44,843 bases of DNA from Candidatus Cloacimonadota bacterium (GTDB taxonomy: Bacteria > Cloacimonadota > Cloacimonadia > Cloacimonadales > TCS61): positions 1 to 44,843 of the forward strand of contig JAUXFF010000006.1 of NCBI GenBank assembly GCA_030620155.1, in the 5' to 3' direction. The notes below the pieces were generated by a model, which was not told the DNA's origin, made no database searches, and worked only from the letters and a program-made list of their open reading frames with translations. Positions 1,644 to 30,235 of the stretch are shown here, piece by piece. The stretch's first letter is position 1. Every line of letters begins with the position of its first letter. Both the position numbers and the translations under genes were made by a program.

Positions 1644-1676
1644 AAAATTATTTATTTTTTTTGTGTGAAACTTCTT

Positions 1677-1723
1677 GTTTCCAAGCCTGTAAGGGTGATG
1701 TATATTACTCCCAGCTTGGAAAC
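1677..1723. repeat. Type-B REP-like hairpin, copy 1 (47 bases)
   Basis: Outer arms GTTTCCAAGC and GCTTGGAAAC are perfect inverse complements; the inner part (GGGTGAT/ATTACTCC) is also nearly palindromic. By eye it is identical to the copy at 3097-3143. It ends 16 bases before the HD-like gene, directly ahead of its AAGGAG ribosome-binding site. Confidence 0.85.
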
Positions 1724-1738
1724 AATAAGGAGAAAATA

Positions 1739-2284
1739 ATGAATATAAAAGAATTATGGCCCGAATTGGATTGGATAAAAGATGACAACCTTCGGGAAAA
1801 AACTACACAAACCTGGGAACTTGCTTTAAAGAGAAGTGTTCTTACCGCAGAAGACCTGCAAACCATTCCCTTTACACTTTTATGTGGTCCTGACCTGAAG
1901 GTCACAGTCATGGATCAAAAAAGAGCAGTAGTTCATATTGCCCGTGAAAGTGGCTTAAAAATGAAAGAATTCTTTAAAGATGAATTACCTGTTAATATGG
2001 ATGTAGTTATTGCCGGAGCAATACTTGCTGACGTTGCAAAACTTCTGGAATATGTTCTCGATGAGAATGGTAAAGCTGTTCAGGGAACTTATGGGAAACT
2101 CCTGAGACATCCTTTTTCAGGGGTGTCCATTGCAGAAGAATGCGGAATTCCTCCTGAAGTATGTCATATAATCGCCACTCATGCCGGCGAGGGTGACCTG
2201 GTGAAAAGAACAACAGAAGCTTATATCGTTCATCATGCTGACTTTATGACATACCTTCCGTTTAAAGAAAGATTGAAAGTGTAA
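1739..2284 (+). CDS. HD-superfamily-like protein with a degenerate metal-binding doublet
   Basis: This 181-residue soluble protein has the layout of a small HD phosphohydrolase: VVHIARE (H66), a hydrophobic helix leading to ILADVAK (A97-D98), H124 in RHPFSGVSIA, H148 in IATHAGEG and VHHADF (165-169). In a canonical HD domain the second motif is HD; here it is AD, so one metal ligand is missing while the other positions remain. It may be a weakened enzyme, a one-metal variant or a nucleotide-binding relative. The start was set at the ATG after AATAAGGAGAAAATA. Reading further upstream would run through the repeat hairpin. It lies between the dehydrogenase and the RAYT gene; its job is unknown. 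Confidence 0.7.
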   Translation: MNIKELWPELDWIKDDNLREKTTQTWELALKRSVLTAEDLQTIPFTLLCGPDLKVTVMDQKRAVVHIARESGLKMKEFFKDELPVNMDVVIAGAILADVAKLLEYVLDENGKAVQGTYGKLLRHPFSGVSIAEECGIPPEVCHIIATHAGEGDLVKRTTEAYIVHHADFMTYLPFKERLKV

Positions 2285-2289
2285 TTCAA

Positions 2290-2315
2290 CGTATCCAAGC
2301 TGGGGCTTGGATACG
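2290..2315. repeat. Type-A hairpin, copy 2
   Basis: A perfect 11-bp inverted repeat, CGTATCCAAGC/GCTTGGATACG, with a four-base loop lies six bases after the HD-like gene's stop. It is followed by GAGAAAGCTAGGG, the same tail found in the tandem array after the RAYT gene. Confidence 0.85.
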
Positions 2316-2336
2316 AGAAAGCTAGGGCTTAACTCT

Positions 2337-2362
2337 GGTTTCCAAGCCCCAGCTTGGAAACC
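2337..2362. repeat. Short type-C hairpin
   Basis: A perfect 11-bp inverted repeat, GGTTTCCAAGC/GCTTGGAAACC, with a four-base loop: the arms of type B without its middle. It is followed by ATATGGAG, a ribosome-binding-site-like sequence with no start codon behind it. Confidence 0.8.
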
Positions 2363-2384
2363 AATATGGAGTAACTGAGATTCT

Positions 2385-2432
2385 GTTGCCCAAGCCTGTA
2401 AGTGTGATGTATATCACTCCCAGCTTGGAAAC
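2385..2432. repeat. Type-B hairpin, copy 2 (diverged)
   Basis: Same plan as 1677-1723 but with a changed left arm (GTTGCCCAAGC) and a compensated centre (GTGTGAT/ATCACTCC). It ends 14 bases before the RAYT start and is followed by TATGGAG, the ribosome-binding site of that gene. Confidence 0.8.
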
Positions 2433-2446
2433 CTATATGGAGAAAT

Positions 2447-2983
2447 ATGAAAAGCAGATACAAGATTTTGCAGAATGATAACAGCTTATATTTTCTCACA
2501 CTTAATGTTTTAAAGAAAATACCAGTTTTCACAAATTCATCCTATATGAATATAATTATGGAGAATTTTACCTTTTACCGAGAAAATCAGCATCTGCATA
2601 TTTTCAGTTATGTTATTATGGATAACCATATTCACCTGATAGCATATCATCCAGATAATTTGTCACAAGTAGTGCAGAATTTAAAAAGCTTCACTGCAAA
2701 AGAACTAATAGAAAGACTTCATAAAGATGAAAGAGATTGGATACTAAAATTAATTTCAGAATATAAACCTGATTATAAACAAGAATCTACTTTTCAGTTC
2801 TGGGAAGAAGGGAATCACCCGAAACAAATACAGAATATTGAGATGTTTAACCAGAAAGTAGATTACATTCATTACAATCCTGTAAGAAGAGGATTGGTTG
2901 CGAATGAAGAAGATTGGGTATATTCCAGTGCAAAAGATTTTCTTGGATTAGATCCTGTTTTTCAGGTCGATAGATTAGATTAA
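2447..2983 (+). CDS. REP-associated tyrosine transposase (RAYT, Y1/HUH family)
   Basis: This 178-residue Y1-type single-strand DNA transposase relative has the HUH-like motif MDNHIHLIAYH (residues 58-68) and the C-terminal signature VDYIHYNPVRRGLV, which contains the candidate nucleophilic tyrosine. Its length and the GNHPKQI segment fit RAYTs rather than full IS200/IS605 elements, and there is no TnpB or IS end structure. It sits inside a cluster of eight hairpins built on CCAAGC/GCTTGG arms, the expected substrates of such an enzyme. Domesticated RAYTs are thought to mobilise or maintain REP/REPIN repeats. The start follows ATGGAGAAAT. The gene separates the dehydrogenase block from the first aconitase-family gene. 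Confidence 0.88.
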   Translation: MKSRYKILQNDNSLYFLTLNVLKKIPVFTNSSYMNIIMENFTFYRENQHLHIFSYVIMDNHIHLIAYHPDNLSQVVQNLKSFTAKELIERLHKDERDWILKLISEYKPDYKQESTFQFWEEGNHPKQIQNIEMFNQKVDYIHYNPVRRGLVANEEDWVYSSAKDFLGLDPVFQVDRLD

Positions 2984-2988
2984 TCATA

Positions 2989-3080
2989 CGTATCCAAGCT
3001 GGGGCTTGGATACGAGAAAGCTAGGGGCTGGGGCTTGGATACGAGAAAGCTAGGGGCTGGGGCTTGGATACGAGAAAACG
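2989..3080. repeat. Type-A hairpin followed by a 29-bp unit repeated three times
   Basis: CGTATCCAAGC (2989-2999) pairs with the first GCTTGGATACG. That right arm plus GAGAAAGCTAGGGGCTGG then recurs with an exact 29-base period (C of GCTTGG at 3005, 3034 and 3063). The left arm is not repeated, so copies 2 and 3 are right halves only. It lies six bases after the RAYT stop. Confidence 0.85.
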
Positions 3081-3096
3081 TGAATATAGAATTCTG

Positions 3097-3143
3097 GTTT
3101 CCAAGCCTGTAAGGGTGATGTATATTACTCCCAGCTTGGAAAC
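3097..3143. repeat. Type-B hairpin, copy 3 (same sequence as 1677-1723)
   Basis: The 47-base hairpin is identical by eye to copy 1, 1.4 kb away, and is followed by AAAAGGAGAAACTGTG. It supplies part of the leader of the downstream aconitase-family gene. Confidence 0.85.
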
Positions 3144-3166
3144 CCAAAAGGAGAAACTGTGATTCT

Positions 3167-3191
3167 AGTGTCCAAGCCCAGCTTGTACACT
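3167..3191. repeat. Short type-D hairpin
   Basis: AGTGTCCAAGC faces GCTTGTACACT across a three-base loop with one mismatch. It lies 25 bases before the first aconitase-family gene and keeps the CCAAGC/GCTTG core. Confidence 0.7.
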
Positions 3192-5085: not shown

Positions 5086-6813
5086 ATGAAAAAAATTATT
5101 CTTATGCTTATTGTTTTGTATTTGAGTATGTCTTTATTTGCAGGCGTGCAAGATAACGATCAACAAAAATTGATCGATGAATACTATTTTTATAACAACT
5201 GGAAAAAATATGACAAAGCGATTTCTGCTATGGAACAATATCTACAGGAAAATTCATCTTCATTTTATGAATATCAGCTCGGCAAAACATATCTTTTTTC
5301 TGGAAAAAAACTTAAAAAAGCAGAGCAAATATACTTAAATTTTATTAAGAATTACAAGCATTTGGAAGATAAACAAGGACTTCCTCTTTATTCAGGATAC
5401 TGGCGTCTGGGAATGGTTTATGAAGCGATGGGTAATTTGGAGGAAGCAAAAAGTAATTATCAAAAAGGATTGGATATCGAGGAAAATGACAATTGCAGAA
5501 AAGCCTTGGAAAATCTTGGTGATAATACAAAATTTAATGAGCAATTAACCAAGAATGAAAAACTATGCTATTTCTTCAAAATCTGGCATTATGCTAACGA
5601 TTTCTTCGCCTTTTTTGATCAAATTGATCTGGATTGGGAAAAAGTGAAAATGGAGTATTTACCCAAAGTTCAGATAACAAAAAATAATGAAGAATTCTAC
5701 TGGCTGATTACAGAAATGATTGCGTTATTAAAGGATGGACACACAAAAGTTTATGTTCAGGGATTGTGGAAAACTGCTTTTATTCAAACAAAGATCATTG
5801 GAGATAATGTCTATTTTATTAATGATGAATCATACCGTAAACAAACGATGTTACCCGGAGATAAAATTCTAAAAATAAATAATCTTCCCGTAATGGATGT
5901 TGTCGAAGAAACAAAGAAATACATTCCCAGCTCTACTGAACAGTGGATAAAATCCAGATTGGAATTTGACTGGTCATTTATTAACTTCAATAATTGCGAT
6001 TCTGTTGTTGTGGAATATAGGCAAAAAGATAAAGTTTTTCAGGAAATAATATATCCGTCTCCTAAAAAATCCAATAAAAAATTACCTTATGTAGAATCAA
6101 AACTCCTAAAAGACAATATTGGTTATATTGCAGTAAACTCTATGAATCCAACACAAGAAATAATTCCTCTATTTGATTCCGCCTTAGATACGCTTTTCAA
6201 TACAAAGGCACTGATTATTGATATTAGAAATAATGGCGGAGGAAGTTCAAATACAGGATTTTATATAATTGTAAGAACTTCCAATAAACCCTTACAGGTA
6301 TTTAAAAGTAAGGTAAGAATTTATAGTGTTGATATGTTTGATAAATGGTTCTCAGATGAGGAAATGTTTGATGTTTTTTATTCAGTTTATCAAGGAATAT
6401 TTCCCGATACAACAGAGGCAAATAAAGAGGGATTACTAGGAAAATTCAAAAATTGTGAATATTTCGTATTGCAGCCAAGACCACCGATATATGATAAACC
6501 GATTGTAGTTTTAATTGGTCCGAAAACCTTCAGTGCAGCGGAGGATTTTCTGGCACCTTTACACGGCACGGATAGAGTTACTTTGATAGGAAAATCCACA
6601 GGAGGAAGTACAGGACAACCTCTTATGATTAATTTGAATAATGATCTTTCTGTAAGAATATGCTCTCGAAGATGCTGGTGCTCTGACGGTTATGAATTTG
6701 TAGGAAAAGGATTTGTACCGGATATCGAAGTTAAAGAAACTATCGAAGATATTCTATCAGGGAAAGATATAACTTTGGAGAAAGCAATTTTGTATTTAGA
6801 AGGAGATAAATAA
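5086..6813 (+). CDS. Exported S41 (tail-specific/tricorn-like) peptidase with N-terminal TPR-like region
   Basis: This 575-residue protein has a signal peptide (MKKIILMLIVLYLSMSLFAG). A helical, TPR-like stretch (about 25-150) is followed by an S41 protease domain. ALIIDIRNNGGG and GPKTFSAAEDF (nucleophile S483) are the hallmark motifs of periplasmic carboxy-terminal processing-type proteases. Residues about 240-300 (GDKILKINNLPVMDV) resemble a degenerate PDZ-like segment. Its stop shares one base with the start of the second aconitase-family gene, so translation is probably coupled. The combination with metabolic neighbours is odd, and no function in that pathway is implied. Confidence 0.85.
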   Translation: MKKIILMLIVLYLSMSLFAGVQDNDQQKLIDEYYFYNNWKKYDKAISAMEQYLQENSSSFYEYQLGKTYLFSGKKLKKAEQIYLNFIKNYKHLEDKQGLPLYSGYWRLGMVYEAMGNLEEAKSNYQKGLDIEENDNCRKALENLGDNTKFNEQLTKNEKLCYFFKIWHYANDFFAFFDQIDLDWEKVKMEYLPKVQITKNNEEFYWLITEMIALLKDGHTKVYVQGLWKTAFIQTKIIGDNVYFINDESYRKQTMLPGDKILKINNLPVMDVVEETKKYIPSSTEQWIKSRLEFDWSFINFNNCDSVVVEYRQKDKVFQEIIYPSPKKSNKKLPYVESKLLKDNIGYIAVNSMNPTQEIIPLFDSALDTLFNTKALIIDIRNNGGGSSNTGFYIIVRTSNKPLQVFKSKVRIYSVDMFDKWFSDEEMFDVFYSVYQGIFPDTTEANKEGLLGKFKNCEYFVLQPRPPIYDKPIVVLIGPKTFSAAEDFLAPLHGTDRVTLIGKSTGGSTGQPLMINLNNDLSVRICSRRCWCSDGYEFVGKGFVPDIEVKETIEDILSGKDITLEKAILYLEGDK

Positions 6814-8615
6814 TGCCGGGAAAAACCTTCGTAGAAAAAATCCTCAACGCAGAAAAAGGCGCTATAGTATTCCGAAAACCGGATATCGTGTTAACCCATG
6901 ATAACACAGCAAGTATTAAAAATACATTCAAGAAAATGGGGGGAGAAAAAGTTTCTGACCCAGATCAACTTTTAGTTGTTCTTGACCATAATGCTCCACC
7001 TACAAGCTCAAAATTAGCAAACCAGTATCAGACAATCCGTGATTTTGTGAATGAACAGGGAATAAAGAAATTCTATGATGTGGGAGAAGGTATCTGTCAC
7101 CAGATTATGAGCTATCATGCCAAACCCGGAATGATTATCGTGGGAAGCGATAGTCATACTTGCACAGCGGGAGCTTTTAATACACTTGCTGCAGGTATAG
7201 ATAGAACCGAATCCGCAGGAATCTGGAAAAGAGGAGAAACCTGGTTCCGCGTTCCGGAATCGATGAAAATCACCTTGAAAGGCAAGCTTAATAAAGGTGT
7301 TTACGCTAAAGATATTTCACTCTGGATCATAGGAAAAATCGGTTCTACCGGTGCGAACTATATGAGTATAGAATTTCACGGAGATGGCGTGAAAAATCTT
7401 TCCATTTCTGAACGAATGACTCTGGCTAATCTGGCTTCTGAAATGGGAGCAAAAAACGCAGTATTCCCTGCTGACGAAATCTTGAGAAATTTTTTAAATA
7501 AAGCTTCCGAATTTTCAAAAACTTCGGAATTTTTAAATGGAATCTGGGCTGATGAAGACGCAATTTATGAAAAAGAGATTGAAATAAATCTGGAAGAGAT
7601 ATTCCCACTTGTTGCAGCTCCTCATCACGTAGATAATGTAAAAGCTGTTTCAGAGGTTCAGGGAACAAAACTGAATCAGGGACTCATCGGAACCTGTACA
7701 AACGGAAGATTGGAAGACATCCGAATCGCTGCTGAAATTCTGGATGGGGAAAAAGTAGCAGACGGATTCCAGCTGCTTATAATTCCCGCATCCAAAGAAA
7801 TATATCTGAAAATGATCGAGGAAGGTCTAACTACTAAACTAATGAATGCCGGAGCAAGTGTTCTGGCAGTTTCCTGCGGACCCTGTCTGGGTACAGGTCA
7901 GGGAATTCCTGCAGATGGATATACCGTAATCTCCACAGCAAATCGTAATTTCAAAGGTAGAATGGGAAATAAGGAAGCAAGCATTTATCTTGCATCTCCG
8001 GCTTGCGTAGCACATTCTGCAATAAAAGGTGAAATTACAGATCCTCGCGGAATAGAAATGAACGATATATTTCCATACAAAAAAGAACAAAGCACTACTG
8101 TTGAAATAAAAAGCAGTGATAATAGAAGAATTAAAGCAACCTGGAATTATGCGGATGTTGACAATCTGAATACAGACCAGATGTTTGTCGGTAATCTTAC
8201 CTATCAAGTGCTCAGCTCTGATCCCGAAGCTATTATGCCGCACCTTTTCAAAGGTTTCGATGATAGTTTTTCTGAAAACGTCCAATCCGGTGATGTGATT
8301 GTTGCTGGTGAAAATTTCGGCTGCGGTAGCTCCCGCGAACATCCTGCTGTCGGGCTTTCTCACGCAGGTGTGAAAGCAGTTATCGTGAAATCAGTGAACA
8401 AGATTTTCTATCGTTCCTCAGTGAACCAGGGTCTTCCAATAATTGTAATGCCTGAAGTTGTGGATTATTACAAGGCAGGAGATAATGTGACAGTGGATTT
8501 AGAAAGCGGTATAATCAAAGTGAACGAAAAAGAGTTCAAATTCGCTCCACTACCAAAGGAACTGATGGCGATCTTTGCTGCTAAGGGTCTGGTGAATTGG
8601 ATAAAGGAGAATTAA
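6813..8615 (+). CDS. Single-chain aconitase-family hydro-lyase 2 (fused LeuC-like and LeuD-like parts)
   Basis: This 600-residue paralogue of the enzyme at 3217-5025 has the same fused architecture. Cluster ligands are C295 (GTCTNGR) and C355/C358 (SCGPC). The small-domain active-site loop is canonical, FGCGSSREHP (R508). The substrate loop reads VGNLTYQ (459-465), again without the YLRT arginine. VGSDSHTCTAGAFNTLA is the expected large-subunit motif. The low similarity to the first copy, and the different loops, suggest two different substrates rather than redundancy, for example a citrate/isocitrate enzyme and a second acid. The last 75 bases are duplicated at 9353-9427, behind the inserted toxin-antitoxin pair. 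Confidence 0.88.
   Translation: MPGKTFVEKILNAEKGAIVFRKPDIVLTHDNTASIKNTFKKMGGEKVSDPDQLLVVLDHNAPPTSSKLANQYQTIRDFVNEQGIKKFYDVGEGICHQIMSYHAKPGMIIVGSDSHTCTAGAFNTLAAGIDRTESAGIWKRGETWFRVPESMKITLKGKLNKGVYAKDISLWIIGKIGSTGANYMSIEFHGDGVKNLSISERMTLANLASEMGAKNAVFPADEILRNFLNKASEFSKTSEFLNGIWADEDAIYEKEIEINLEEIFPLVAAPHHVDNVKAVSEVQGTKLNQGLIGTCTNGRLEDIRIAAEILDGEKVADGFQLLIIPASKEIYLKMIEEGLTTKLMNAGASVLAVSCGPCLGTGQGIPADGYTVISTANRNFKGRMGNKEASIYLASPACVAHSAIKGEITDPRGIEMNDIFPYKKEQSTTVEIKSSDNRRIKATWNYADVDNLNTDQMFVGNLTYQVLSSDPEAIMPHLFKGFDDSFSENVQSGDVIVAGENFGCGSSREHPAVGLSHAGVKAVIVKSVNKIFYRSSVNQGLPIIVMPEVVDYYKAGDNVTVDLESGIIKVNEKEFKFAPLPKELMAIFAAKGLVNWIKEN
8541..8615 (+). repeat. Gene-end repeat, copy 1 (3' end of aconitase-family gene 2)
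   Basis: These 75 bases encode FAPLPKELMAIFAAKGLVNW plus IKEN and the stop. They match 9353-9427 with about seven differences counted by eye. The two copies bracket the MntA/HepT genes. Confidence 0.9.
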
Positions 8616-8719
8616 GCGATCACGGATTAACTCGGATCAAACAGATGAGAAAATTACTCAAAATAAGATTAAATTGACAAAATGGAAATAGCTTTTTTTT
8701 TCATTTGCAGGAGAGTATT

Positions 8720-9013
8720 ATGAAAGATATAAAAACAGTAAAGTTAATATTATCGAACAATAAAGCAGATTTAAGTAGAAAATATTTTGTTAGCAATTTG
8801 GGACTTTTTGGTTCATATGTAAGAGGAGATCAATCAGAAAATAGTGACATCGATGCATTGGTCGAATTCAGCAAACCTATCGGACTGTTTCATTTTCTCA
8901 GACTTCAGGAATATTTAGAAAAAATATTAGGAGAGAAAGTTGATCTTGTAAGTAAAAATGCTTTGAAAAAAAGAATTGCCGAACACATTCTAAAAGAAGT
9001 GGTTTATATATGA
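8720..9013 (+). CDS. mntA: MntA-like minimal nucleotidyltransferase (antitoxin)
   Basis: This 97-residue MNT-fold protein has the catalytic motif GSYVRGDQSENSDID (G31-S32, D43, D45). In characterised MNT/HEPN pairs the nucleotidyltransferase AMPylates a tyrosine of the HEPN toxin and silences it; all residues needed appear present. The ATG at 8720 was preferred over an in-frame TTG 15 bases upstream because GCAGGAGAG lies at the right distance. The stop overlaps the next start as ATGA. The pair sits in a segment bounded by two copies of the aconitase gene end, so it was almost certainly acquired. Confidence 0.88.
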   Translation: MKDIKTVKLILSNNKADLSRKYFVSNLGLFGSYVRGDQSENSDIDALVEFSKPIGLFHFLRLQEYLEKILGEKVDLVSKNALKKRIAEHILKEVVYI

Positions 9014-9345
9014 TTCAAAGAACTTATCAGGTTTATTTTGAAGATATTTTAGAAGCAATTAATGATATTTCTAACTTTATTAAGAACCTTTCTTTTAACG
9101 AGTTTACAGAAGATAAGAAAACCATAAATGCTGTGATCAGGTCTTTGGAAATAATTGGAGAGGCATCTAAAAAAGTATCACAGGAAATTAAAGAAAATAA
9201 TAAAAATATTCCCTGGAAAGAAATGGCTGGAATGAGAGATAAAATGATACATGGATACTTTGATTTAGATTTAGTCACAATCTGGGAAACAGTTAATAAA
9301 GATATTCCGCCTTTGAAACCATTGTTTGAAAATCTGTTGAAATAG
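9010..9345 (+). CDS. hepT: HepT-like HEPN ribonuclease (toxin)
   Basis: This 111-residue all-helical HEPN protein has the RX4HXY signature MRDKMIHGYF (R76, H81, Y83). The Arg and His form the RNase site, and Y83 is the residue modified by the partner in known systems. It is translationally coupled to the upstream MNT gene through ATGA. The duplicated gene end begins eight bases after its stop, so the insert boundary lies directly behind the toxin. Confidence 0.88.
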   Translation: MIQRTYQVYFEDILEAINDISNFIKNLSFNEFTEDKKTINAVIRSLEIIGEASKKVSQEIKENNKNIPWKEMAGMRDKMIHGYFDLDLVTIWETVNKDIPPLKPLFENLLK

Positions 9346-9352
9346 ATACACA

Positions 9353-9427
9353 TTTGCTCCGCTAACAAAGGAACTGATGGCGATCTTTGCTGCTAAGGGT
9401 TTGGTGAATTGGATTAAGAATAATTAA
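9353..9427 (+). repeat. Gene-end repeat, copy 2 (orphan 3' end of aconitase-family gene 2)
   Basis: The copy is still readable as FAPLTKELMAIFAAKGLVNW plus IKNN and a stop, but has no gene attached. The differences from 8541-8615 leave the encoded residues nearly unchanged (Pro to Thr, Glu to Asn). That suggests both copies were under coding selection before the insertion joined them. Confidence 0.9.
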
Positions 9428-10243: not shown

Positions 10244-10279
10244 TTATTTATGTTTTCCATATCTAAATATAATAAAAAA

Positions 10280-10333
10280 TTACGTATTTTTCTTATCAGT
10301 AATTTCAAGGAAGCTGAATTCCGACCGGACAGA
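10280..10333 (+). pseudogene. Remnant of a second DUF4143-type ATPase gene
   Basis: In one frame this stretch encodes LRIFLISNFKEAEFRPDR, nearly the same as LRNFLISNFNEAEFRPDR inside the intact ATPase gene 1.1 kb downstream (11367-11420). DNA identity is about 85 percent by eye. No start or flanking homologous sequence is left. It is either the scar of a tandem duplication or part of a displaced allele. Confidence 0.75.
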
Positions 10334-10451: not shown

Positions 10452-11696
10452 ATGAAATACTATCCAAGAATAATAGAAAAAACATTACTTGAATATTTAA
10501 ATCGACCGGAAGCTATTTTCATTCTAGGAGCACGTCAAGTTGGAAAGACCTCTTTAATGAAACACATAATGGCAGAAATTGATAATAACCGCTATCTTTA
10601 TATTGATCTTGAAAATTCAATAAATCTCTCAATTTTCACCAAAGGAGTAAATGAATTTCTTAATTATCTTAAATATCAGAAGTTATCTAAATCGGAACTG
10701 AATTACATTTTTATAGATGAAATTCAATACGCTCCAGATTTTTCCAGCCTGATAAAATATATAGTTGATCATTATTCAGATAGATATAAGTTAATTCTCA
10801 GTGGTTCTTCATCTTTGCAAATTCGAAATAAATTTAAAGAATCTTTAGTTGGGCGTAAAATTGTTTTTGAACTTTATCCGTTAAACTTTACAGAATTTTG
10901 TTTATTCAGGAACGAATCAAAAATAGCTGATATTCTTCAGCAACATAATCCTTTAAAACTAAATGAAGACCATTTACGATTTGAAAAAGATAAAACATTA
11001 CATTTACTTAAAGAGTATTTAGTTTACGGAGGATTTCCAAAAGTTGTTCTGCAAGAAAATAAAACTAGTAAAGTTAGGATTCTGCAGGATATTGTCCAAT
11101 CTTATGTAATGAAGGATATTAGGTATCTTTTTCACCTGGAAAAGATATCACAATTCAATCATCTAATAAAATTATTGGCAGTTTTTATAGGAAAAGAAAT
11201 CAATATTTCACAATTAGCTACAGAAACGAAATTACATAAACAGACACTGAAACATTACATAAGTGCTCTGGAATCGAGCTATATTATCAAAATGATTCAA
11301 CCTTTTCACAAAAACCTTTCTTCAGAATTAAGAAAAACACCAAAATGCTATTTTATAGATAACGGATTGCGAAATTTTCTTATCAGTAATTTCAACGAAG
11401 CTGAATTCAGACCTGACAGGGGTGAATTGCTGGAAAACTTCATATTCACACAGCTTCTGATTAAATCCGATCCACTCACAAAAATAAATTACTGGCGAAC
11501 AAAATCAAAACAGGAAATAGATTTTATCTTGCAAAAGGAAAATCAATTATTTGCTTTAGAAGTAAAATGGAGCGATGGCTCATTTCAAAATTTAAGGAAA
11601 TTTGTTCAGATATATCCTGATTCTTCAACTTTTATGATCAGCATGTTGCGAAACTTTGAGAAGGAAAAAAATTATTTACCTGTGTATTGGATTTAA
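10452..11696 (+). CDS. AAA_14/DUF4143-type ATPase
   Basis: This 414-residue P-loop ATPase has Walker A GARQVGKTS near residue 30 and Walker B YIFIDEIQ near 95. The sensor-like LILSGSSSLQI and the ELYPLNFTEF segment are typical of the family, followed by a DUF4143 C-terminal part with a PD-(D/E)XK-like pattern (EIDFILQKENQLFALEVKW, about 355-375). Members are common, often transferred, and of unknown cellular role. A fragment of a second copy lies just upstream. The start follows TTTCGAGGTATTAACT. It is transcribed alone behind the inverted repeat at 10395. Confidence 0.88.
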   Translation: MKYYPRIIEKTLLEYLNRPEAIFILGARQVGKTSLMKHIMAEIDNNRYLYIDLENSINLSIFTKGVNEFLNYLKYQKLSKSELNYIFIDEIQYAPDFSSLIKYIVDHYSDRYKLILSGSSSLQIRNKFKESLVGRKIVFELYPLNFTEFCLFRNESKIADILQQHNPLKLNEDHLRFEKDKTLHLLKEYLVYGGFPKVVLQENKTSKVRILQDIVQSYVMKDIRYLFHLEKISQFNHLIKLLAVFIGKEINISQLATETKLHKQTLKHYISALESSYIIKMIQPFHKNLSSELRKTPKCYFIDNGLRNFLISNFNEAEFRPDRGELLENFIFTQLLIKSDPLTKINYWRTKSKQEIDFILQKENQLFALEVKWSDGSFQNLRKFVQIYPDSSTFMISMLRNFEKEKNYLPVYWI

Positions 11697-24662: not shown

Positions 24663-25985
24663 ATGACTAATCAATTGTCTCTATTTGATAAAAAAATAAA
24701 ACCAACTAACATACCTTTAGCTGAGAAAATAAGACCTAAATCCTTAGATGAAATCAGGGGTCAGGAGAAATTATTGAAAGAAGGTTCTCAGCTCAGGACT
24801 ATGATAAAAAAAGACAATTATAGTTCTTTTATCTTATGGGGTCCTCCGGGTACTGGTAAAACCACCATCGCTCGTATTATCAAAAGAAAATCCCTAAACA
24901 GGTTTATTGCCTTCAGTGCTGTTCTGGCCAGTATTAAAGATGTAAAAAACATAATGAAAGAAGCTGAATTCACCCTGGAAACACAGAATAAAAGTACGAT
25001 TTTATTTATTGATGAAATTCACCGTTTTAACAAATCTCAACAGGATGCCTTCCTTCCATACGTGGAATCAGGAGCAATTATCCTAATCGGGGCAACTACT
25101 GAAAATCCGTCTTTTGAAATAATTCCCCCACTTCTTTCTCGCTGCCATGTCTTCGTATTGGAACAACTTTCAAATAAAAATTTAGAAAAAATATTAAAAC
25201 AAGCTGTTGAAAAAACAGGTAAAAATCACAATTTTGATAAAGACTGTATTTCTTACCTGGCTGCACAAAGTGGTGGTGATGCCAGGAAAGCTTTAAATTA
25301 CCTGGAAAGCATTTTTAATAATATCTCCGAATCCCAAAAAGTTGATGTGAAAACTGTCTCCAAAATACTTTCAAAAAAAGCAATGTTCTATGACAAAGAC
25401 AGGGAAGAACATTACAATGTAATCTCAGCTCTCCATAAATCTTTGAGAGGAAGTGATCCTCAAGCAGGTCTCTATTGGCTGGCAAGGATGTTGGAAGCAG
25501 GAGAGAATCCTCTTTATATTGCCCGAAGGCTTGTTCGTTTTGCTTCCGAAGATGTGGGACTTGCAGACCCCAATGCTTTAGTTCAAGCTGTTGCAGCCAG
25601 AGATGCAGTTCACTTTCTGGGAATGCTTGAAGCAAATGTTCATCTTGCTCAATTAGTAGTTTACCTGGCAACTGCACCAAAAAGTAATTCCCTGGAAACA
25701 GCATACAATAAAGCCTCAAAAGACGCACAAAAAACCAGCCATCTCGGTGTTCCAATGCATATTCGAAATGCACCTACAAAACTTATGAAAGACCTGGATT
25801 ACGGAAAAGATTATAAATATTCCCATGATTATGAAAATGCTTATTCTTTTCAGAAATATTTTCCCAACAAAATGAAAGAAAAAATTTATTACAAACCTTC
25901 AAGATTCGGATTTGAAAAAGAAATTAAGAAACGTCTGGATTGGTGGAATAAACTGAAGGAAAAGCAGGAGAAGAGCGATAAATGA
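24663..25985 (+). CDS. rarA: RarA (MgsA), replication-associated AAA+ recombination protein
   Basis: This 440-residue protein has [20 protein letters not shown], Walker [10 protein letters not shown], Walker [20 protein letters not shown] and [10 protein letters not shown]. The C-terminal tetramerisation part ([40 protein letters not shown]) is present. RarA acts at stalled forks. The first residues, [11 protein letters not shown], contain a textbook sliding-clamp-binding pentapeptide (QLSLF). The last 128 bases before the final codons recur at 27476-27603, behind a two-gene insert. Confidence 0.95.
25843..25970 (+). repeat. Gene-end repeat of rarA, copy 1
   Basis: This part of the rarA 3' end ([20 protein letters not shown] onward) matches 27476-27603 with about five differences by eye. 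The two copies flank the genes at 26110-27372. Confidence 0.9.
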
Positions 25986-26109
25986 CAAATCTCTTGCCAA
26001 AATCTAGGTAAATTTAAAATATTGATCGTAATAAAATCAAACTAAAATATATTTTTTTATCTTCTACTTATAATTATTATGAAAATTGTGATTTAACAAA
26101 GGAGAAGGA

Positions 26110-26610
26110 ATGAAAAAATGTTATTTGCAGGTTATCTTTATATTTACCCTGTTGTTTGTTTCCATTCTGAATTTATCATCAGAAAAATCCATACCAACAG
26201 TAAAAATCACATTTGAATTGTTACCTTTGGCAATACAGGAAGAATTTCAAAAAGTCGCTGATGTTAACTCAATCACTGAAATTGAACTGGAAAAAGAGTA
26301 TGAGGGTATATCAGTTTATGAACTTGAAACTCAAAAAAATGGTACACAGGTGGTTTACATTTATTCCAATGATGGAACACTACTGGAAATTGAGAGAACA
26401 ATTCAATATGAAGAACTTCCTGAAATCTCCCGGAAAATGCTCGAAGAAAAATATCCAAATTTAGATATCAAAATGGTAGAATCTATACAGATCAACTTTT
26501 TTGAAGTTAAAGGTAAATTGGATGGTAAAACAATAGAGCTTAAAATTTTTAACGATGGTAACATCGAATTGGAAGAAGAAGATGAGGAAGAGGAAGAAGA
26601 AATTGATTAA
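26110..26610 (+). CDS. Exported PepSY-like protein with acidic tail
   Basis: This 166-residue protein has a signal peptide (MKKCYLQVIFIFTLLFVSILNLSS). It is followed by two PepSY-like units: LPLAIQEEFQKVADVNSITE with YIYSNDGTLLEIE, and LPEISRKMLEEKYPNLDIKM with KIFNDGNIELE. It ends in a strongly acidic run. Such modules are thought to bind or inhibit proteases or carry calcium; nothing specific can be said here. Twelve bases separate it from the lipoprotein gene downstream. Both lie inside the rarA gene-end repeats. Confidence 0.75.
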   Translation: MKKCYLQVIFIFTLLFVSILNLSSEKSIPTVKITFELLPLAIQEEFQKVADVNSITEIELEKEYEGISVYELETQKNGTQVVYIYSNDGTLLEIERTIQYEELPEISRKMLEEKYPNLDIKMVESIQINFFEVKGKLDGKTIELKIFNDGNIELEEEDEEEEEEID

Positions 26611-26622
26611 AAGGAGGAAGTT

Positions 26623-27372
26623 ATGAAATGCATAATAATATCAATAACTCTAATCGTCGGGTTCTTATTTATTATGGGTTGTTGTGAAGATAAAAAATGC
26701 CCGACCAGCCCTACAAATCCAAATGATCAGCCCTACAATATTACAATAGATCCTGCTGACTTTGAAGATACAAATATCACTGGTAATACATTCATGCCCT
26801 TAGTGCCTGGAACCACTTTTTTCTATGAAGGTGAAGATGAAGATGGCATTTTGGTTGAAGTAGAAGAACATATTACAGACTCGACTATAATAATTATGGG
26901 AGTAACCTGTATTGTGGTGGAAGCTAAAGAATATGAAGAAGGAGAATTAGTTGAAGATACAGACGATTGGTATGCCCAGGATCTGGATGGAAATATCTGG
27001 TACTTTGGAGAATATTCTGAGGAATTTGAAGATGGACAGGTCGTAAGTACGGAAGGCTCCTGGGAAGCAGGAGTTGATGGTGCTCTTCCCGGAATTATAA
27101 TGCTTGCTGATCCGATAGTAGGTATGTGGTACAGGCAGGAATATTATGAAGGTGAAGCTGAAGACTGTGCCCAGGTTTTAAGCTTGGATGAGACTGTTAC
27201 AGTTCCCTACGGAACTTATGATAATTGTCTTCAAACTGCTGAATGGAATCCTCTGGAACCTGGCATTGTTGAACATAAGTTTTATGCTGCAGGTGTTGGG
27301 CTTTTAAGAGCAGTTGCAGTAGAAGGAGAAACAGGGTTCGAAGATCTGGTTGCTATAACCACCGGTCCTTAA
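26623..27372 (+). CDS. Lipoprotein of unknown function
   Basis: This 249-residue protein has a lipoprotein signal (FLIVGFLFIMGCC-like lipobox, cysteine near residue 20). A proline/threonine linker leads into an acidic beta-rich domain containing NTFMPLVPGTTFFYEGED, WYAQDLDGNIWYFGEYSEE, GALPGIIMLADP and VPYGTYDNCLQT. I recall similar single-domain secreted proteins in several phyla, some next to PepSY genes, but no function. It probably forms an operon with the PepSY-like gene. It is the second cargo gene of the rarA-end insert. Confidence 0.7.
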   Translation: MKCIIISITLIVGFLFIMGCCEDKKCPTSPTNPNDQPYNITIDPADFEDTNITGNTFMPLVPGTTFFYEGEDEDGILVEVEEHITDSTIIIMGVTCIVVEAKEYEEGELVEDTDDWYAQDLDGNIWYFGEYSEEFEDGQVVSTEGSWEAGVDGALPGIIMLADPIVGMWYRQEYYEGEAEDCAQVLSLDETVTVPYGTYDNCLQTAEWNPLEPGIVEHKFYAAGVGLLRAVAVEGETGFEDLVAITTGP

Positions 27373-27397
27373 TAAATTACCACAAAACAAAATATGG

Positions 27398-27440
27398 GGA
27401 TGCAAGGTTCTGGATAATTTTCTTCCAAAACTTTGCATCC
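27398..27440 (+). terminator. Strong hairpin after the lipoprotein gene, probable terminator
   Basis: GGATGCAA (27398-27405) pairs with TTGCATCC (27433-27440). The stem extends inward through GTT.TGGA/TCCA.AAC. A T-rich tract follows at a short distance. Confidence 0.55.
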
Positions 27441-27475
27441 GATTCATTATTTACTCTTTTTAAAAAGAATATTTA

Positions 27476-27615
27476 ATTCTTTTCAGAAATATTTTCCCAA
27501 CAAAATGAAAGAAAAAATTTATTACAAACCTTCAAAATCCGGATTTGAAAAAGAAATCAAGAAACGTCTGGATTGGTGGAAGAAACTGAAGGAAGAGCAG
27601 GAAAACTCGTCCTAA
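27476..27615 (+). pseudogene. Orphan duplicate of the rarA 3' end
   Basis: It reads [20 protein letters not shown], then [20 protein letters not shown], then ENSS and a stop. It is collinear with the rarA C-terminus up to 27603 and then has its own ending. There is no start codon or upstream part. DNA identity to 25843-25970 is about 96 percent by eye, and most differences are silent or conservative. Confidence 0.88.
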
Positions 27616-27791
27616 ACTCTCAGTCAAATTTTAATTCGTCAATTTAGAGAAGCCTGACAAGTCTCTTCAAATCAAGAGATAGACTTAATGGAAATTGGGA
27701 ATTAACTTGTTTGATATAATCATTCCTTTAAAATCTCCATTAAAAAGCTAGAACTAAAGAGTATTTTTAAAATTCAACGCTCTTTTTTTGA

Positions 27792-27820
27792 TTGACAATG
27801 AAGAAATAGATCGATTATAA
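27792..27820 (+). promoter_or_regulatory. Sigma70-type promoter for the PAP2 gene
   Basis: TTGACA (27792-27797) and TTATAA (27815-27820) are spaced 17 bases apart. Transcription would begin near 27827, almost at the first ATG. The true start may therefore be leaderless at 27829 or the ATG at 27847. Confidence 0.6.
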
Positions 27821-27828
27821 AATAACTT

Positions 27829-28653
27829 ATGAAAATTTATTTTTTTATGGAGAGTTATAAACATAGTCAAAAAACTATAATCTTTCTAATTATATCTGTT
27901 ACAATAATTTCAAGTTGCGCGCATGTCAACAATCCTTGGGGAAAAGATGCTTTATATCCCATAAATAAAAATAGGATTTTTCATGCTGCCCGGACCTCTA
28001 TTTTAGATTATCAAACTATTGTTCCGGCTTTTAGTTGTGCATTTTTCTATTATTTTAAGCTTGATAACAAAACATCTAAATGGTTGTCTTCGGAAACTCC
28101 GGTTTTCGGTTCAAATAAAAATGCTCAAGAAGCGAGTGATATTTTAAATGACCTGCTAAAATATGAAACTTTTCTCACTACTTTAATTGTCCCAAGTGGA
28201 GACAAATTGGGTGATTGGATATTCTACAAGACAAAAGGAATTTGTGTAGAATACAGTGCTTTTTGTATTTCTAAGGGAGCAACAGCATTCTTAAAAGATA
28301 AAACAAATCGAAAAAGACCGGATAGTAGTGATGACAGAAGCTTTCCTTCAGGTCATACCAGCAATGCGATATCATATTCCACGCTTTCCAATCGTAATCT
28401 TGAATATTTAGAAAATCATTATGTCGTTAAATACATACAAACCTTTAATATCTTATTGGCTGCATCAGTTGGTTATGCCAGAATAGAAGGGAAAAGACAC
28501 TATCCTTCAGATGTTTTTGCTGCTTTTTCCTTAAGTTATTTCATAAACTCTTTCATTTATGATGCTTTTCTCGGAAGATCAAAATCGAATATAAGCCTTA
28601 AGTTTTATAGTTTTGGTCATTCCAAATCATTTTATTTCTCAATAGGCTTTTAA
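27829..28653 (+). CDS. PAP2-family phosphatase, probable lipoprotein
   Basis: This 274-residue (or 268 from the second ATG) protein has a lipobox ISSC ending the hydrophobic leader. Its phosphatase core shows all three motifs: KDKTNRKRP, SFPSGHTS, and ARIEGKRHYPSD with the catalytic histidine and aspartate. PAP2 enzymes dephosphorylate lipid phosphates such as undecaprenyl pyrophosphate or phosphatidic acid; the substrate here is unknown. It is monocistronic, with its own promoter. Confidence 0.82.
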   Translation: MKIYFFMESYKHSQKTIIFLIISVTIISSCAHVNNPWGKDALYPINKNRIFHAARTSILDYQTIVPAFSCAFFYYFKLDNKTSKWLSSETPVFGSNKNAQEASDILNDLLKYETFLTTLIVPSGDKLGDWIFYKTKGICVEYSAFCISKGATAFLKDKTNRKRPDSSDDRSFPSGHTSNAISYSTLSNRNLEYLENHYVVKYIQTFNILLAASVGYARIEGKRHYPSDVFAAFSLSYFINSFIYDAFLGRSKSNISLKFYSFGHSKSFYFSIGF

Positions 28654-29078
28654 AATCTTGTGTTATCAATTTACTCAAGTTTCGCAGGAGTGTGAATTAT
28701 CATCACGACTGCTTTCATGCATTTTACAATATTCTATAACGAATTGTTTCATACAAAAAGATGTTTCCAAACAATTAGAAATATTTTAACCACATCATAA
28801 AAAAGCAAGACTTGACTCCCAATGATCCGGCAGCTGCTGGAGAATGTGAATCGAGGATTGCAACTATTTCAAACAGGTTGTTCTTCCCGATTCATCGGGA
28901 CACTTCATCACGAGTCAAATTCAACCTCTGAATTTAGATTATTTTCAACTTAAATTATTTATCAACTTGCCGATATAGGAGAGTTTAACACAAGTTTTCA
29001 TTAACCAGTTTGACTATTATTTTTTTCTTCGCGTTTATTAGTGTATATTTGTGGCTGAATAAGTCTCAATTAAAAAAA

Positions 29079-29105
29079 TTAGCACTCTAAGATTTAGTTT
29101 GACAA
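29079..29105 (+). promoter_or_regulatory. Upstream CIRCE-like operator
   Basis: The left half TTAGCACTC (29079-29087) matches the HrcA consensus exactly. After nine bases the right half GTTTGACAA (29097-29105) matches GAGTGCTAA at five of nine positions and overlaps the -35 box. Confidence 0.6.
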
Positions 29106-29126
29106 TTTTAAGAAAATAATTAAATT
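29099..29126 (+). promoter_or_regulatory. Promoter of the hrcA-grpE-dnaK operon
   Basis: TTGACA (29099-29104) and TAAATT (29121-29126) are separated by 16 bases. An inverted repeat GACAATTT (29101-29108) / AAATTGTC (29122-29129) covers most of the promoter. Confidence 0.6.
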
Positions 29127-29134
29127 GTCGTAAA

Positions 29135-29161
29135 TTAGCAGTTTTTTGGAAAGAGTGCTAA
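29135..29161 (+). promoter_or_regulatory. Downstream CIRCE operator
   Basis: TTAGCAGTT, nine bases, then GAGTGCTAA: the exact 9-9-9 CIRCE layout with a perfect right half and six of nine matches kept on the left. It lies in the leader of hrcA, the gene for its own repressor. Confidence 0.85.
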
Positions 29162-29179
29162 AAAAAGCAGGGAATGATT

Positions 29180-30235
29180 ATGAAAAAAAGAGAGATAAGG
29201 CAAGAAAAGATTTTAACTTATCTAATAGAGGAATATATCCAATTTAAAGAACCTGTCTCCTCTAAATTATTATATGACAAGTATATAAAAACAGCCAGTC
29301 CTGCGACTATCAGGATTGATTTGAACCACCTGGAAAAAATCAACCTCGTCTATCAACCCCATACATCTGCTGGCAGGCTTCCAACAATACAGGGTTACAG
29401 GAGATATATTTCCAACATATCAAATAAAATAAAGAAAGAAATGTATAAGGATGCCAAATTATTAAGAGACATTTTGATAAAGCATTACAAAGACACACCT
29501 ATTGCTCTTCATTATATTATGCAGCTTTTAGCCAAGGAAACAGACCAATTGAGTTTTGTGGCTGAACCTGAGGTCTCAAGCGGTTACCTCGAAAAACTGG
29601 ATGTTTTCAAAATAGCTAAAGATAAACTTCTTTTTGTGGTGAGTCTTGATTCAGGATTAGACAAAACTGTCATTCTAAGATGTGATCATGATATCACTGA
29701 ACAGCAGCTTCGGGCAATTGTAAGATATATAAATGAAGAATTTGTGGGACACCGGATTTATGATATTCAAAATAAATATATCGAGGAAACTACGGAAAAA
29801 TTAAGCCAGGAAAACAAACTTTTAAAGCTTTTTCTGGATGAGTTACACAATGCATTTTCTGAAATTAGCAGTTATTATATACATTTCGACGGCAATATAA
29901 GTTTCCTGGAGCAACCTGAATTTGATAATAAAAGTTCGATTCTGACTTTTCTTGGTTTCATTCAAAGGCAGGATTATCTAATCAATCTTATGAAGAGTTT
30001 TGACTCCCAAAAACCTTATCATGTACTTCTAGGAGAAGATTTAGGTCAACCCGAACTGATAAGTTATTCTTTAATTTTTTCCAGATATGAGATTTTCGGC
30101 ATCCCTGGTTATCTTGGAATATTAGGTCCAAATAGAATGAATTATAAGAAAAATATACCAATAATAAGAGACATCGCTAAGATCATTACAAATACAACAA
30201 AGAAAGGAATGATGGTAGTAAAAAATGGTAACTAA
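29180..30235 (+). CDS. hrcA: HrcA, heat-inducible transcription repressor
   Basis: This 351-residue regulator has an N-terminal winged helix (EKILTYLIEEYIQFKEPVSS, SPATIRIDLNHLE, TSAGRLPTIQGYRRYI). Its C-terminal GAF-like domain ends GYLGILGPNRMNYKKNIPII. It binds CIRCE elements and releases them when chaperones are occupied. The start is the second ATG, six bases behind AGGGA; an ATG two codons earlier has no spacing. First gene of hrcA-grpE-dnaK, followed after a gap by dnaJ. Confidence 0.95.
   Translation: MKKREIRQEKILTYLIEEYIQFKEPVSSKLLYDKYIKTASPATIRIDLNHLEKINLVYQPHTSAGRLPTIQGYRRYISNISNKIKKEMYKDAKLLRDILIKHYKDTPIALHYIMQLLAKETDQLSFVAEPEVSSGYLEKLDVFKIAKDKLLFVVSLDSGLDKTVILRCDHDITEQQLRAIVRYINEEFVGHRIYDIQNKYIEETTEKLSQENKLLKLFLDELHNAFSEISSYYIHFDGNISFLEQPEFDNKSSILTFLGFIQRQDYLINLMKSFDSQKPYHVLLGEDLGQPELISYSLIFSRYEIFGIPGYLGILGPNRMNYKKNIPIIRDIAKIITNTTKKGMMVVKNGN

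Follow-up and report, generated by a model that had tools for sequence, protein, structure and literature searches.

Results

A rarA gene end is repeated downstream of two small genes

The window analysed here, 44,843 nucleotides long, is one whole contig (G000:C208) of a Candidatus Cloacimonadota genome of 2.5 Mb in 243 contigs, 93% complete, referred to below as the host genome (G000). Its rarA gene, which encodes an AAA+ ATPase, is intact and is followed by a gene for a secreted PepSY-like protein, a lipoprotein gene with a probable terminator, a second copy of the rarA 3′ end, a PAP2 phosphatase gene and hrcA (Table 1). The nearest of the genomes used for comparison belong to the same family as the host, in other genera.

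Table 1. Features of the rarA-hrcA region and of the aconitase region, in window coordinates
Feature	Position	Strand	Basis
Aconitase-family gene (6813-8615), intact, 3′ end	8526..8615	+	88% over 90 nt to 9339-9427
Cargo: MNT nucleotidyltransferase and HepT pair	8705..9345	+	PF01909 E 9e-15, PF01934 E 9.4e-30
Orphan aconitase 3′ end with stop, directly after hepT stop	9339..9427	+	last 80-90 nt of the gene
rarA (AAA+ ATPase, 440 aa), intact, with probably incoming 3′ end	24663..25985	+	Pfam MgsA_C E 9.3e-69
Gene-end repeat, copy on intact rarA	25843..25972	+	124/130 identical to 27476-27605
Spacer 3′ of intact rarA	25986..26109	+	no match to the G009 native rarA-hrcA spacer
Cargo gene 1, secreted PepSY-like protein, 166 aa	26110..26610	+	PF11396 E 6.6e-05, below Pfam cut-off
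Cargo gene 2, lipoprotein, 249 aa	26623..27372	+	no Pfam match; relatives in family
Stem-loop after lipoprotein gene, probable terminator	27398..27440	+	folding energy against shuffles
Orphan rarA 3′ end, probably native end, own stop	27476..27615	+	repeat match; native spacer after orphan
Native rarA-hrcA spacer remnant, first block	27716..27820	+	aligns from base 2 of G009 spacer; 2/1000 shuffles as good
PAP2 phosphatase gene, separate insertion in native spacer	27829..28653	+	PF01569 E 7.7e-14
Native spacer, second block	28735..28803	+	0/1000 shuffles; 88% over 50 nt at 28754-28803
Native hrcA upstream region, CIRCE-like element	29064..29173	+	0/1000 shuffles in each of five relatives
hrcA, native neighbour of rarA	29174..30235	+	HrcA E 1.1e-39; adjoins rarA in five relatives

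The first-pass annotation had described 128 bases of the rarA end recurring 1.6 kb downstream at about 96% identity. Alignment of the two copies gave a direct repeat of 130 nt with six mismatches (95.4% identity) and a spacing of 1633 nt, which is far beyond chance. The first 60 nt are identical, all six mismatches fall in the 3′ 70 nt, and the repeat stops 13 nt short of the rarA gene end. The downstream copy, hereafter the orphan, keeps the rarA reading frame through to its own stop and is covered by no open reading frame of at least 80 residues. As the annotation had stated, the open reading frame list and Pfam place the PepSY-like gene and the lipoprotein gene, and no others, between the two ends. 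A second full rarA, which it had named as evidence against an insertion, is not found in the host genome, where rarA matches one full rarA, the orphan and, as a distant AAA+ relative, ruvB.

Strain mixtures in a bin of 243 contigs can be mis-joined at repeats, and a chimera of two metagenome strains could in principle produce such a locus. However, the two copies differ at six sites, and the left edge of the orphan (27475/27476), where it meets the lipoprotein side, is a joint without shared sequence on which a mis-joining could occur. Repeat-driven misassembly is therefore unlikely, and we regard a chimera as barely credible.

The orphan adjoins the native rarA-hrcA spacer

Five relatives share the order ruvB-rarA-hrcA-grpE-dnaK, as far as their contigs extend, with a rarA-hrcA gap of 139-281 nt versus 3188 nt in the window. 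The insert-free rarA end, which the annotation had proposed to seek among strains, was thus found in relatives at the level of the family, five of which carry rarA directly before hrcA. The 281-nt spacer of one of them (G009) aligns with the window as three blocks in colinear order. Its first ~100 bases match DNA beyond the orphan, bases 90-154 lie past the PAP2 gene, and bases 173-279 fall just before hrcA (29064-29167). The significance of each block was assessed with 1000 dinucleotide shuffles. Support is weakest for the first block, whose score was reached in 2 of the 1000 shuffles, in one relative and among 20 segment-genome comparisons. For the DNA that follows the intact rarA, 499 of 1000 shuffles align with the G009 spacer as well as the real sequence does. 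Since the native flank follows the orphan and does not follow the intact gene, the orphan probably represents the old native end, and the new rarA end probably came with the cargo.

A tandem duplication of the rarA end together with the PepSY-like and lipoprotein genes, whose second cargo copy was then lost, would give the same final order with no second homologous donor end. This scenario, also named by the annotation as evidence against its reading, appears very unlikely. No direct support for it was found, the orphan is followed by native spacer with no PepSY- or lipoprotein-like remnant, and the deletion would have had to stop near a gene end twice, at rarA and at the aconitase gene described below.

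The PAP2 gene separates two spacer blocks that adjoin each other in G009, and is a second, separate insertion in the spacer. The annotation's proposal of an insertion that duplicated a gene end around a two-gene cargo, like a second case in the window, is thus supported by relatives without the insert. It is refined in two respects: the downstream copy is probably the native end while the intact rarA carries the incoming one, and the PAP2 gene does not belong to the same insertion. The rarA-hrcA spot accepts insertions repeatedly, since in two further genomes (G006, L240; G020, L241) it is occupied by other genes spanning about 9 kb, with no orphan of rarA there.

The bases at the six differing sites were compared with those of 25 relatives. 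The intact copy carries the rarer base at 25903 (R for K) and 25949 (N for K), the orphan carries it at 25906 (S for F), and the three remaining sites are undecided. Rarer bases in both copies indicate that the differences are not just decay of the orphan; if an orphan drifted next to a gene under constraint, almost every change would be expected on its side. Of the six differences, four alter an amino acid, which fits drift too.

Elsewhere in this region, a non-coding segment before hrcA (28806-28861) has relatives of 77-84% identity at other places in the genome (L122, L171) and is a small dispersed repeat. An orphan-like rarA fragment in G026 and a split rarA in G010 and G029 were rejected as contig ends.

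The cargo is patchily distributed and has relatives at other loci

The region after the lipoprotein gene (27373-27475) folds at -25.2 kcal/mol (z -4.8), with none of 200 shuffles as good. Relatives of the lipoprotein, 60-89% identical at the amino acid level, were found in six family genomes, all at other loci. In G102 the gene adjoins a close relative of the PepSY-like gene (91% at the amino acid level), and the pair is 87.9% identical in DNA over 1260 nt; the pair is also present in G006, with a more distant PepSY protein (40%). The insert is thus patchy, missing from the relatives' rarA loci while the cargo lies elsewhere in their genomes. DNA identity to G009 and G030 reaches 87% for the lipoprotein gene versus 75-76% for rarA. 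Since cargo DNA is 87-88% identical to that of relatives whose rarA is only ~76% identical, the comparison points to horizontal exchange of the PepSY/lipoprotein cargo. The gene-end repeat is absent at all other loci of the lipoprotein in family genomes, so that the repeat belongs to the rarA event and not to the cargo.

The open reading frame list and Pfam revealed no recombinase in either insert of the window, at rarA or at the aconitase gene. Pfam revealed no transposase in the rarA insert, and the window holds no inverted repeats of at least 40 nt, so the marks of a transposon insertion with target duplication are not seen at this size. Searches of plasmid, phage and viral collections with the lipoprotein returned distant plasmid matches only, and none in phages or viral contigs. 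Among 125 genomes, neither a donor carrying the intact rarA end with its following spacer nor a genome with the order rarA-PepSY-lipoprotein was found. The closest sequence in the phylum to the intact rarA end is the orphan itself (95%), followed by one at 83%.

A second gene end, that of aconitase, is a recurrent insertion site

The same architecture is present in the window at an aconitase-family gene, whose cargo is an MNT-HepT pair (Table 1). A protein search of the family detected orphan aconitase ends in G034 (two orphans), G009, G031 and G021, at distances of 0.7-3 kb downstream of the gene. Counting the host, the architecture is found in five genomes, with stacked inserts in two, and insertion at the aconitase 3′ end is recurrent within the family. 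In G021 the gene is followed by MNT-HepT and an orphan. In G009, of the same genus, it is followed by an HTH protein with a second small protein, an orphan and then MNT-HepT, after which an older orphan is largely decayed. G034 has the same stack as G009 plus a second orphan. In G021 and the host a conserved MNT leader lies after the intact stop, in G009 and G034 after the orphan; it makes filled and empty sites comparable and indicates that the orphan again lies on the native side.

The sequence of G034 shows the same direction. The body of its aconitase gene is 91-98% identical to that of its congener G032, the last 300 nt are 88-90% identical, and the DNA after the stop is 98-100% identical. 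At 18 of 24 discriminating sites the G034 orphan matches the intact end of G032, and at three it matches its own gene (two-sided binomial 0.0015). Between G009 and G021 the tendency was the same but not significant (19 versus 12). Genomes whose aconitases share 77-85% identity have MNT-HepT pairs that are 86-93% identical, so this cargo was exchanged too.

The aconitase cargoes (L290, L291, L292, L293) comprise MNT/HepT, a pair with an HTH protein (weak PADLOC RmrA match) and a 191-residue protein, and an orphan aconitase end comes after each of them. G034 (L290, reverse-complement 6372-6571) and G009 (L291) share 95-96% identity over the end of the second cargo gene and a 45-nt non-coding spacer, and 60-79% over the rest of that cargo, which would correspond to a recombination patch or a conserved element. 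Candidate aconitase orphans in G007 and G030 were rejected, as they lie at contig edges where the intact genes are truncated. In G007:C558 (L268) the aconitase 3′ end is identical to that of G027, from another genus, and G007 also has a second, split copy; judged from this identity, its full copy may be a contaminant in the bin.

Prophages and integrative elements of the e14/icd type replace the 3′ end of a gene and leave the old end orphaned on the far side. The inserts described here have the same architecture, with an intact gene supplied with a new end, the cargo and the displaced old end, and the recurrence and stacking at aconitase also suit a remnant of, or satellite to, such a site-specific element, with its attachment site in the gene end and its integrase lost or acting in trans. 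Unlike those elements, the inserts lack an integrase: no recombinase was detected in the two window inserts or in the inspected aconitase cargoes. The cargo measures only about 0.6-2 kb and the repeat length is not fixed, the orphans being about 80, 100, 130 and 160 nt long and spanning about 80 to 160 nt at aconitase alone, although a short attachment core may lie inside them. Moreover, two unrelated genes would require two integrases. Variable repeat lengths, two unrelated target genes and inserts without recombinases make one site-specific integrase less likely, and we consider an origin of this kind unlikely.

Gene-end orphans are not pervasive in the host genome

In a sample of 866 kb of the host genome (528 genes of at least 150 residues), the search that the annotation had suggested for other genes followed by an orphan of their own end returned the aconitase gene of the same window and two weaker cases (58-63% amino acid identity), which look like shared C-terminal domains. 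The remaining orphan-like matches in the 866 kb came from contig edges or from families with shared C-terminal domains. With 14 orphan-like matches upstream of genes and 4 downstream, the pattern is not pervasive. Across 899 kb of relatives, no orphan ends other than those of aconitase, for which these loci had been fetched, were detected.

Two further features of the window involve repeats. Several copies of a AAGCTGGG-rich palindromic repeat surround an IS200-like open reading frame (2447-2983; Y1_Tnp, just below cut-off) at 1671-3178, possibly a REP/RAYT arrangement. A 61-nt internal piece (11359-11419) of an AAA/DUF4143 gene (10452-11696) also occurs upstream of the gene (10272-10332); the upstream piece is probably a fragment of a lost relative.

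Discussion

A single crossover with a circular molecule probably accounts for the rarA locus

The rarA locus has a repeat on both sides, a foreign or patchily distributed insert between them, and a native flank that resumes after the second repeat. Recipient DNA shows no apparent loss, with the blocks of the G009 spacer lying after the orphan (the first of them of moderate strength). A displaced native end, a whole gene and an intact recipient are what a circle leaves behind when it enters by a single homologous crossover. On the sequence evidence, we give a probability of roughly two in three to Campbell integration, in which a DNA circle with a gene end and cargo enters by a RecA-type single crossover and no dedicated recombinase is involved.

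The entering DNA would have carried the rarA 3′ end of a close relative followed by the PepSY-like and lipoprotein genes, and was most likely circular or became so as it entered. A single homologous crossover in the final 130 nt of rarA would have kept the gene whole while giving it the incoming end and placing the cargo after it. The recipient's own end would thereby have been displaced 1.6 kb downstream, still attached to the native rarA-hrcA spacer. Such an event presumably depends on RecA and would make a dedicated recombinase unnecessary. The flanking repeats could release the cassette again as a circle with one gene end, and the inserts that recur at the end of aconitase would have arisen by the same process. 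A search of the host genome (93% complete) found DprA but no ComEC, which 29 of 39 family genomes have. No circle or vector was seen, and the collections searched contained no phage or plasmid vector.

In Escherichia coli, most products of incoming DNA with homology on one side were gene-end duplications of 109-950 bp. These were attributed to single crossovers of molecules that had recircularised, and single crossovers depended on RecA (PMC3240628). In these lacZ-end experiments, as here with 130 nt, a repeat of the target gene end flanks the foreign DNA. Unlike them, the present case is a natural event in an uncultured bacterium, with recurrence at the aconitase end across genera and toxin-antitoxin-like cargo. 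Our literature search found no report on gene-end cassettes in Cloacimonadota, and the E. coli paper (PMC3240628) was the only close parallel.

Homology-facilitated illegitimate recombination of a linear fragment, with a homologous crossover in rarA at one end and a non-homologous join at the other, would also explain why one side is homologous and the other joint shares no sequence. It is RecA-dependent and known in competent bacteria (PMC3240628), and in Streptococcus pneumoniae, Acinetobacter baylyi and Pseudomonas stutzeri one-sided homology likewise anchors foreign DNA. However, in this process the recipient usually loses a stretch of DNA about as long as the one it gains, and 3-10 bp of microhomology usually remain at the joint (PMC3240628). 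Here a duplication was made, nothing native was apparently lost, and no microhomology is visible at the joint left of 27476, although comparison with the donor sequence might reveal some. We judge this route improbable, and retain the single crossover of a circle as the preferred reading.

Meaning for the family

Taken by itself, the rarA locus is a clear case in nature of a recombination product already known. The mechanism is known; what is unusual is that it recurs across genera at the end of aconitase, where inserts are stacked and toxin-antitoxin-like cargo is exchanged. A wider and distinctly tentative idea, which we find doubtful as it stands, is that Cloacimonadota carry recombinase-free mobile cassettes, in which a small cargo, often a toxin-antitoxin-like pair, travels with an 80-160 nt conserved gene 3′ end as homing address. 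Such cassettes would exit as a circle through the flanking gene ends and re-enter at the same gene in another species, the newest being stacked next to the gene.

In wild genomes, small cargo can settle beside housekeeping genes with no integrase or transposase in the insert. The orphan gene end is a readable scar that marks the native flank: it gives the direction (the native end), the order (the newest insert lies beside the gene) and a search criterion applicable to any genome. If the aconitase cassettes cycle by homologous recombination alone, they would offer a testable route by which small defence or toxin-antitoxin pairs spread without mobility genes.
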